A DNA stretch of 64,000 nucleotides, from contig JABUFA010000005.1 of the NCBI GenBank assembly GCA_013314755.1, positions 62,001 to 126,000 of the forward strand, in the 5' to 3' direction. The notes below the pieces were generated by a model. The model saw nothing but the letters and a program-made list of their open reading frames with translations. It did not search any database and was not told where the DNA came from. This DNA comes from Chthonomonadia bacterium. Its GTDB lineage: Bacteria > Armatimonadota > HRBIN16. Both the position numbers and the translations under genes were made by a program. Of this stretch, positions 10,709-11,986 are shown piece by piece. The number at the start of each line of letters is the position of its first letter. The first letter of the stretch is position 1.

Positions 10709-10742
10709 CTATGTTAGTCTCTTGGGAAGGAATGACACGGCG

Positions 10743-11072
10743 GTGGACCTGCAGACGTTTAAAGAACTGGTTTATCGGGAGTTTGGCGAACACCTGGAGC
10801 ACGCTACTCCTGCCAACGTGCGCGAGTTTCTGGACAGGCTCCAGATGCAGGAGGTTGCCCGCAGACTGCCGGGCGAACGTTTTGAAATCCACGAAACAGG
10901 CACCACCTACGAGGAGATTATCAAGGACTTCTTTGCGCGCGTGCTGGAGATGCCCCGTGATGAGGCGATTATTCTGCTGTGGACGCTGGCGATAGACCTT
11001 GCGTTTGCTGCCGTCGAGCATCAGTACGCGGAATATTTTGCCTCTCTGTTCAAAGACCTTGACCAGTACTAA
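10743..11072 (+). CDS. Small helical protein of unknown function
   Basis: I do not recognise this 109-residue protein. It is predicted to be mostly helical, with an alternating acidic and basic pattern (LQTFKELVYREFGEHLEHA) and a C-terminal hydrophobic helix (EAIILLWTLAIDLAFAAVEH) that may be buried rather than transmembrane. GTG at 10743 is chosen because GGAAGG precedes it. A TTG at 10722 in frame is possible but overlaps the ribosome site. It is followed after 18 bases by the thioredoxin-TPR gene and likely shares its promoter. Confidence 0.6.
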   Translation: MDLQTFKELVYREFGEHLEHATPANVREFLDRLQMQEVARRLPGERFEIHETGTTYEEIIKDFFARVLEMPRDEAIILLWTLAIDLAFAAVEHQYAEYFASLFKDLDQY

Positions 11073-11090
11073 ATTCAAGGAGGTGCAAAC

Positions 11091-11951
11091 ATGCAGGACG
11101 CCCTGCGAAAAGTTGCGCCTGCGATGGCTTTGTTTTGGGTGGTTACGACAGCACACGCTGACGGCATCGCGTGGCTCCACTCATACGACGAGGCGCTGAA
11201 GCAGGCGAAAGAGAACAACAGGGTGGTGATGATCGACTTCTACACCGACTGGTGAGGCTGGTGTAAAAGGCTGGACCAGGATACCTTCTCCAGCGAGAAG
11301 GTGGTTCAGCTGGTGGGGCAGGTTGTCCCGCTGAAGCTCAATGCGGAAAAAGAGGGCGCAGAGGTTGCCCGCAAGTATCGCATCCGCGGCTATCCCACCG
11401 TGCTCTTCGTGGATAGCGAGGGGAACACCATCGGTAAAATCGTCGGATACCTGCCGCCCGACGCCTTCGCCAAACAGCTCACACAGATTACCGAATCCCA
11501 CAAGGCGCTGCCAGAGCTTCTTCAGCGCGTCCAGCAGAATCCCCAGGACGCCGAGGCGCTTGCCCGCCTGACGATGATATATGCCATGCGGGAGGATGAA
11601 GCGAAAGCAACCGAGACTCTGCAATCGGTGGAGAAGGCGGACCCGCGCAACGGAACGGGACTGCTTGGCGCCGCGTACAACGCCGTCGGTGACCTCTTTC
11701 AGAACGCCCGGCAGTTCCAGAAGGCTATCTCCTTCTTCCGCAAAGCGGCAACGCTGAGCAAAAAGCCCGAAGAGATTTCTTACGCCCGGCTGAGCATTGC
11801 CGTCTGTTACCTGAGTACGGGCGACTCTAAGAACGCTCAGCGCGAGCTGGAGGCAGTGGCAAACATGAAGAACGCTCCCGAAGATGACCGTCAGGTTGCC
11901 CGTCAGCTGCTGGAGCGACTTCGTGCACAGCCCCAAAACCAGAAACGGTAG
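11091..11951 (+). CDS. Candidate selenoprotein: exported thioredoxin-fold/TPR protein with in-frame TGA (U-G-W-C)
   Basis: Read through one TGA (11253-11255, codon 55), this frame gives 286 residues. A signal peptide (residues 1-23, ending TTAHA) precedes a thioredoxin-like domain: VVMIDFYTDW, then TGA, then GWCKRLDQDTFSS, and later KYRIRGYPTVLFVD with the cis-Pro. Relatives of this thioredoxin family normally have Cys-x-x-Cys there, so the TGA replaces exactly the nucleophilic Cys. A C-terminal TPR-like helical region follows (about residues 140-275). AAGGAGG sits just before the ATG, and 232 codons after the TGA are intact. Leading reading: selenocysteine in a UxxC redox motif outside the cytoplasm. 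Alternatives: a nonsense mutation or a sequence error (TGC/TGT to TGA). Confidence 0.65.
11282..11303 (+). promoter_or_regulatory. Candidate bacterial SECIS hairpin
   Basis: The RNA can fold TACCTTCTC / GAGAAGGTG (eight Watson-Crick pairs plus one G-U) around a CAGC tetraloop at 11291-11294. Thirty-five bases separate the TGA from the loop, within the 16-37 range described for bacterial SECIS elements. The expected G in the first two loop positions is absent. A weaker alternative nearer the TGA is CTG-GAC-CAG (11271-11279), whose loop starts with G, closed by GGTGT/ATACC (11260-11264 and 11281-11285); it cannot fully coexist with the first. Confidence 0.4.
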
Positions 11952-11960
11952 GTGTTTTTT

Positions 11961-11986
11961 GCCCCTCCCCGAAGTGGAGGGGCTTT
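11961..11986 (+). terminator. Rho-independent terminator
   Basis: GCCCCTCC (11961-11968) pairs with GGAGGGGC (11976-11983) around a seven-base loop and is followed by TTTCT. It lies ten bases after the thioredoxin-TPR stop and closes that transcript. Confidence 0.8.

Follow-up and report, generated by a model that had tools for sequence, protein, structure and literature searches.

An interrupted thioredoxin-TPR gene

The window (the whole 64,000-nucleotide stretch of DNA analysed here, from a Chthonomonadia bacterium) carries at 11091-11951 of its + strand, on which the parts of the gene, its signals and its upstream neighbour also lie, a gene of 286 amino acids that ends with TAG at 11949-11951. 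It is defined by its frame, its Pfam matches, a structural model and a homologue in another species of the same genus (genome G005, the genome of the window being G000). The initial annotation had described a ribosome site, a signal peptide, a frame intact but for one TGA, and a terminator. A Shine-Dalgarno-like AAGGAGG is indeed found at 11077-11083, ahead of the ATG at 11091, as it is ahead of the G005 copy, and translation agrees that the TGA at 11253-11255 (residue 55) is the sole internal stop of the 286 codons, which read ...VVMIDFYTDW-U-GWCKRLD... around it. Residues 1-23 (11091-11159, MQDALRKVAPAMALFWVVTTAHA before DG) look by eye like a signal peptide, and the homologues have similar N-termini, some of them resembling those of lipoproteins; this part of the description holds as a likeness, from which the protein is probably exported. 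The terminator stands only in part: a stem (GCCCCTCC...GGAGGGGC, with a short T run behind it) can be read by eye at 11961-11983, but it is absent from the output of a terminator scan.

Upstream, a 116-aa gene with no Pfam match (10722-11072) ends 18 nt before the ATG and is possibly co-transcribed. It is kept in most of the genus, next to a gene whose product has a LON substrate-binding domain; a dehydrogenase completes the flanks. On inspection the flanks in other phyla look unrelated, so that the neighbourhood, considered as a clue to function, suggests no partner. Frame statistics were likewise set aside as uninformative: the 64-kb window holds 72 open-stop-open arrangements of similar size, 35 of them with TGA, which is what the window itself leads one to expect. 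As stop-split long frames are this common in a window that is rich in GC, only comparative evidence counts.

The read-through protein matched the Pfam models Thioredoxin_7 (7e-17), Thioredoxin_2 (PF13098, 1e-15) and Thioredoxin (2e-13), and then several TPR models. The thioredoxin-fold domain (11160-11483), with DFYTDW-U-GWCK and a cis-Pro at P102, is delimited by PF13899, PF13098 and PF00085, by the AlphaFold (AF2) model and by VIA; the helical TPR-repeat region (11505-11930) is delimited by TPR_19 (7e-8), by other TPR models and by model helices at residues 123-279. The AF2 model, built from 22 sequences (mean pLDDT 93.2), shows a thioredoxin fold at residues about 24-140 followed by eight TPR-type helices. 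The U/CxxC motif sits at the first helix and the cis-Pro is present, as in the UxxC class of the thioredoxin superfamily, and the TGA aligns with the invariant Cys of Thioredoxin_7 and Thioredoxin, that is, at the first Cys of a Cys-x-x-Cys motif where the initial annotation had placed it.

The TGA codon and the selenocysteine machinery

The host genome (3.95 Mb, 98.7% complete, a draft assembly of 88 contigs) encodes every component of the selenocysteine (Sec) system for which the initial annotation had proposed to search: selA (582 bits), selB (434 bits, 2 kb from selA), selD (383 bits) and the Sec tRNA (72.9 bits, the cut-off being 47; called tRNA-SeC(tca) by ARAGORN). Judged by its sequence, the selD gene (G000:C47:36348-37274, L010) is itself a selenoprotein gene, with a single in-frame TGA in GUASKL, at the UxxK site familiar from SelD of the Sec type (PMC13188914). 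With the machinery present and selD carrying a TGA of its own, UGA is available as a Sec codon in this host.

The gene of G005 is 74% identical to that of the window and has TGA at the same codon, while other relatives carry Cys there in the alignment, the two patterns that a Sec codon in place of Cys had been expected to leave. Between the two species the sequence downstream of the TGA gives a dN of 0.146 against a near-saturated dS of 1.77 (dN/dS 0.083), and the nucleotide differences fall 38/29/113 on the three codon positions, from which it follows that the part past the TGA is translated and under selection. The 231 downstream codons are conserved among homologues as well, so the conserved-looking protein of the initial annotation is confirmed, with purifying selection on the rest of the frame. 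The G005 copy also terminates with TGA; a codon passed at one site and obeyed at another implies that its decoding needs a local signal or context.

A scan of 291 genomes of the window's phylum, Armatimonadota, for the active-site motif, with TGA, TAA, TAG or TGG allowed at the variable codon, found matches in 10 genomes, all with TGA, and the reversed pattern, used as a control, found none in the 291. All 10 of these genomes have selA, as against 13 of the 23 with only a Cys form of the TPR protein (one-sided Fisher test, p = 0.012, calculated by hand on species that are not independent). A protein search added further TGA forms, FYTEWUGWCK and FYAEWUHWCK. Among 84,980 genomes, one per species, the TGA motif occurs in 39 stretches, mostly from Poribacteria, then from Planctomycetota and Armatimonadetes, with single records from Latescibacterota, Calditrichota (Calditrichaeota) and Bacteroidetes, and the frames of these stretches run on with related sequence. 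In the Bacteroidetes record (L082) Pfam gives no TPR match at an E-value of 0.001.

The scans also brought up thioredoxin selenoprotein candidates without a TPR tail (L118, L119, L133 and L103:3673-4092, the last being identical with L132), with the motifs FYTDWUGYCK (G109), FYADWUGFCK (G138 and G140) and FYADWUTYCK (the second copy in G167); G140 combines a TPR form with Cys and a short form with Sec. Five long frames of 672-882 aa, each with a single in-frame TGA in a thioredoxin-like region (G042:C63:19564, G010:C281:2117, G039:C212:5976, G059:C242:3348 and G034:C18:138421), are possibly further selenoproteins of the phylum.

A SECIS-like hairpin and the competing readings

Behind the TGA lies a SECIS-like RNA element that overlaps the coding sequence (11253-11318) and is marked by synonymous conservation, fold strength and covariation. 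In the 22 codons that follow the TGA, 17 synonymous codons are the same and 2 are changed between G000 and G005; elsewhere in the gene the counts are 76 and 81 (Fisher test, p = 5e-4). The 60-nt segments past the TGA fold more stably than their synonymous shuffles, by 2.6 (G000) and 3.0 (G005) standard deviations. Across the whole set of genes the mean fold score is -1.11 for Sec forms and -0.53 for Cys forms (p = 0.012). A 9-bp stem, with its 5' arm at 11269-11277 (GGCTGGACC) and its 3' arm at 11303-11311 (GGTTCAGCT), is common to the Sec genes of Armatimonadota and Phycisphaerae, as judged from the shared fold and covariation; it encloses a predicted upper hairpin at 11283-11302 (ACCTTCTC-CAGC-GAGAAGGT), in which the changes between G000 and G005 sit in the loop and in the bulge beneath.

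The core of the stem is complete (6 of 6 pairs) in 9 of the 11 Sec genes of the window's lineage and Phycisphaerae and in none of the 30 Cys genes, which are a fair control because the stem was noticed on Sec genes. The two remaining Sec genes have the stem in a shifted register (L061) or 5 of the 6 core pairs (L101), and one family member with UHWC in place of UGWC (L067, from G170) has the same conserved stem. Pairing is found in 92% of the cells of an alignment of 10 Sec sequences, against 16-44% for slid-partner controls; four stem pairs show changes on both sides, and none of 500 shuffles reached the covariation score, figures to be read with the stem having been chosen after viewing the folds of Sec genes and with related sequences not being independent. 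In the most variable pair the wobble base of a Leu codon is matched with the opening base of a Gln, Glu, Lys or Arg codon (as G-C, C-G or U-A), a coupling that protein constraint alone would not lead one to expect. The covarying hairpin is thus as expected of a bacterial SECIS. An Rfam scan of 11000-11500 matched no SECIS family; bacterial SECIS elements are poorly covered by Rfam.

A single SECIS for all lineages was rejected, the stem being absent from Poribacteria and several Planctomycetota. The Poribacteria have a different hairpin by fold prediction, CGGC-UGGAU-GCCG. For three Planctomycetota (L089, L099 and L100) and the Bacteroidetes record the synonymous-shuffle test gave no good hairpin behind the TGA motif, and Sec decoding is less certain there.

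Three other accounts of the TGA have to be weighed. Since a single base change turns TGC or TGT into TGA, and the 88-contig assembly is a draft, one might suspect a pseudogene or an error of sequencing or assembly; but the same TGA turns up across several phyla in genomes that were assembled independently of one another, in every case where the Cys belongs, and the motif scan met no TAA or TAG there; an RNA element follows it, and beyond it dN/dS is 0.083 with synonymous sites near saturation, so that we regard such decay or error as very improbable. We give as little credit to a genuine stop with two products, in which an internal restart would yield a separate TPR protein. An ORF of 216 aa that begins with GTG is available for it at 11301-11951, but the upstream product would amount to one half of the thioredoxin domain; the stretch from TGA to GTG (GWCKRLDQDTF...) shows conservation at the protein level, Cys58 and K59 being invariant in it; and the sequence at the GTG point is varied in other Sec genes. 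Were UGA read as Trp or Cys, whether through reassignment or through readthrough of an unspecific kind, the product would keep Cys58; such decoding is nonetheless hardly credible given that the site aligns with Cys rather than Trp, that the terminal TGA of the G005 gene rules against a global reassignment, and that a complete Sec system accompanies a hairpin specific to Sec genes.

Selenocysteine at residue 55, in place of Cys as the initial annotation had proposed, agrees instead with the machinery, the conservation of the TGA, the selection downstream and the covarying hairpin. Computation has demonstrated this evidence at the level of genome, conservation and RNA, and there is strong support for reading the gene as one for a selenoprotein.

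Place of the family and its proposed role

UxxC thioredoxin selenoproteins have long been known (PMC1088965, PMC1794560), and the window protein is like them in having Sec for the N-terminal Cys of CxxC, selA, selB, selC and selD in the genome, and a hairpin past the UGA. It differs in its probable export and in its fusion to a long TPR region. The subfamily with FYTDWUGWCK ranges over Armatimonadota, Poribacteria, Planctomycetota and others. Among the 119 selenoprotein families inventoried in 2026 are Trx (PF00085), thiol:disulfide interchange protein (PF13098) and Trx7/PDZ. A Trx-TPR selenoprotein is missing from that inventory, and Armatimonadota and Poribacteria go unmentioned in it (PMC13188914); searches of the open-access literature for selenoproteins of these two phyla gave no description of the family either. 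The window protein falls short of the cut-off of every model in NCBIfam 20.0, the scores of the selenoprotein models being 80.9 of 805 for TsoB (NF045694), the best, 19.1 of 300 for Trx7/PDZ (NF041199) and 19.9 of 275 for VPGUxxT. TsoB and Trx7/PDZ are thioredoxin-like selenoproteins too, with other domain partners and, in Trx7/PDZ, a CxxU motif. Within these three sources the protein is undescribed, as had been supposed.

It is nevertheless conceivable that the protein represents, in another phylum, a selenoprotein already catalogued, such as the 'thiol:disulfide interchange protein' predicted in 2006 (PF13098, UxxC; reference WP_011366075.1), with which it shares a Pfam domain (the 1e-15 match) and a motif class, the comparison having covered the Pfam domain and the description. 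The 2006 sequences were given for Geobacter and Syntrophus, two names that appear in no title among the 39 FYTDWUGxCK records, no NCBIfam model claims the window protein, and the 2026 inventory gives no TPR fusion, all of which makes this identity unlikely, though less so than the three other accounts of the TGA. The Trx-TPR selenoprotein family is judged to be real and is probably uncatalogued, with a mechanism of a known kind.

Structure comparison places the protein near two non-selenium systems. The best whole-length Foldseek match is E. coli YbbN/CnoX (E = 5.5e-8), and as the rmsd is 21 over 279 columns, the domain order is shared and the orientation is different. The likeness to CnoX (PDB 3qou) rests on this order, an N-terminal thioredoxin domain followed by C-terminal TPR repeats; apart from the inter-domain orientation, the window protein reaches 15.6 bits, against a cut-off of 25, with Pfam TPR_20, which we take to be the TPR family of CnoX. 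CnoX, with an SxxC or WCxPC motif, is described as serving proteostasis in the cytoplasm (PMC6282202), whereas the window protein has UGWC and an N-terminus that looks like a signal peptide. Cooperation with GroEL/DnaK is a further mark of CnoX. At the level of the domain, Foldseek and VIA point to the C-terminal domain of DsbD, to DsbH and to thioredoxin, the VIA Z being about 16 for thioredoxin and for C-terminal domains of DsbD. Of thioredoxin-type domains, those of DsbD and DsbH match best both in profile and in structure, and an envelope localisation would be a further likeness; but the window protein has a TPR tail and no membrane electron-transfer domain, and it scores 73.5 and 46.4 with the DsbD and DsbH models (cut-offs 330 and 190).

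The best explanation overall, to which we assign a probability of about 0.93, is that UGA55 is decoded as Sec by means of a SECIS, in what would be an exported UGWC Trx-TPR protein and most likely an envelope reductase. SelB and the Sec tRNA would insert Sec at codon 55 under the guidance of the hairpin, which starts about 13 nt past the UGA. Sec55 and Cys58 would then make up the UGWC active site of a thioredoxin that carries a TPR module, with Sec55 as the nucleophile that attacks disulfides or oxidised thiols and Cys58 as the resolving residue. The TPR part may recruit client proteins of the envelope, whose disulfides and oxidised thiols the thioredoxin part would reduce or isomerise, a direction of catalysis that we infer. 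Electrons would come from an envelope donor, perhaps the DsbD-like protein with FYADWCLPCK that occurs in the genus (named by its appearance only). An envelope thiol/selenol reductase with a client-binding TPR module is thus the most likely biochemical role. In Caulobacter CnoX, reductase and holdase work are combined (PMC6282202), and a similar role outside the cytoplasm is therefore plausible. One might speculate further, with some doubt, that these proteins are widespread and uncatalogued 'seleno-chaperedoxins' of the envelope, Sec-nucleophile holdase-reductases with lineage-specific SECIS elements and repeated exchange of Sec and Cys even within one genus.

In a tree of 70 sequences (40 Sec and 30 Cys) the two forms are intermingled, with about 10 changes between them, at least 3 of which are forced by well-supported branches. 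Only 2 of the 10 genomes of the window's genus have the gene, so it is dispensable; in the 6 gene-less genomes whose flank can be read, the LON-domain gene and the 116-aa gene are direct neighbours. Most of the genus keeps selA, and the gene is accessory and not the sole use of Sec there.

As standard gene callers truncate at TGA, the family is likely to be mis-annotated in at least six phyla. Our analysis adds to the selenoproteome a Trx-TPR architecture that is probably exported, documents the use of Sec in Armatimonadota and Poribacteria, and supplies a SECIS with clear covariation. The Sec form of G021 and the Cys form of G063, sisters with full support in one genus, offer a natural pair in which to ask why selenium is kept or dropped.
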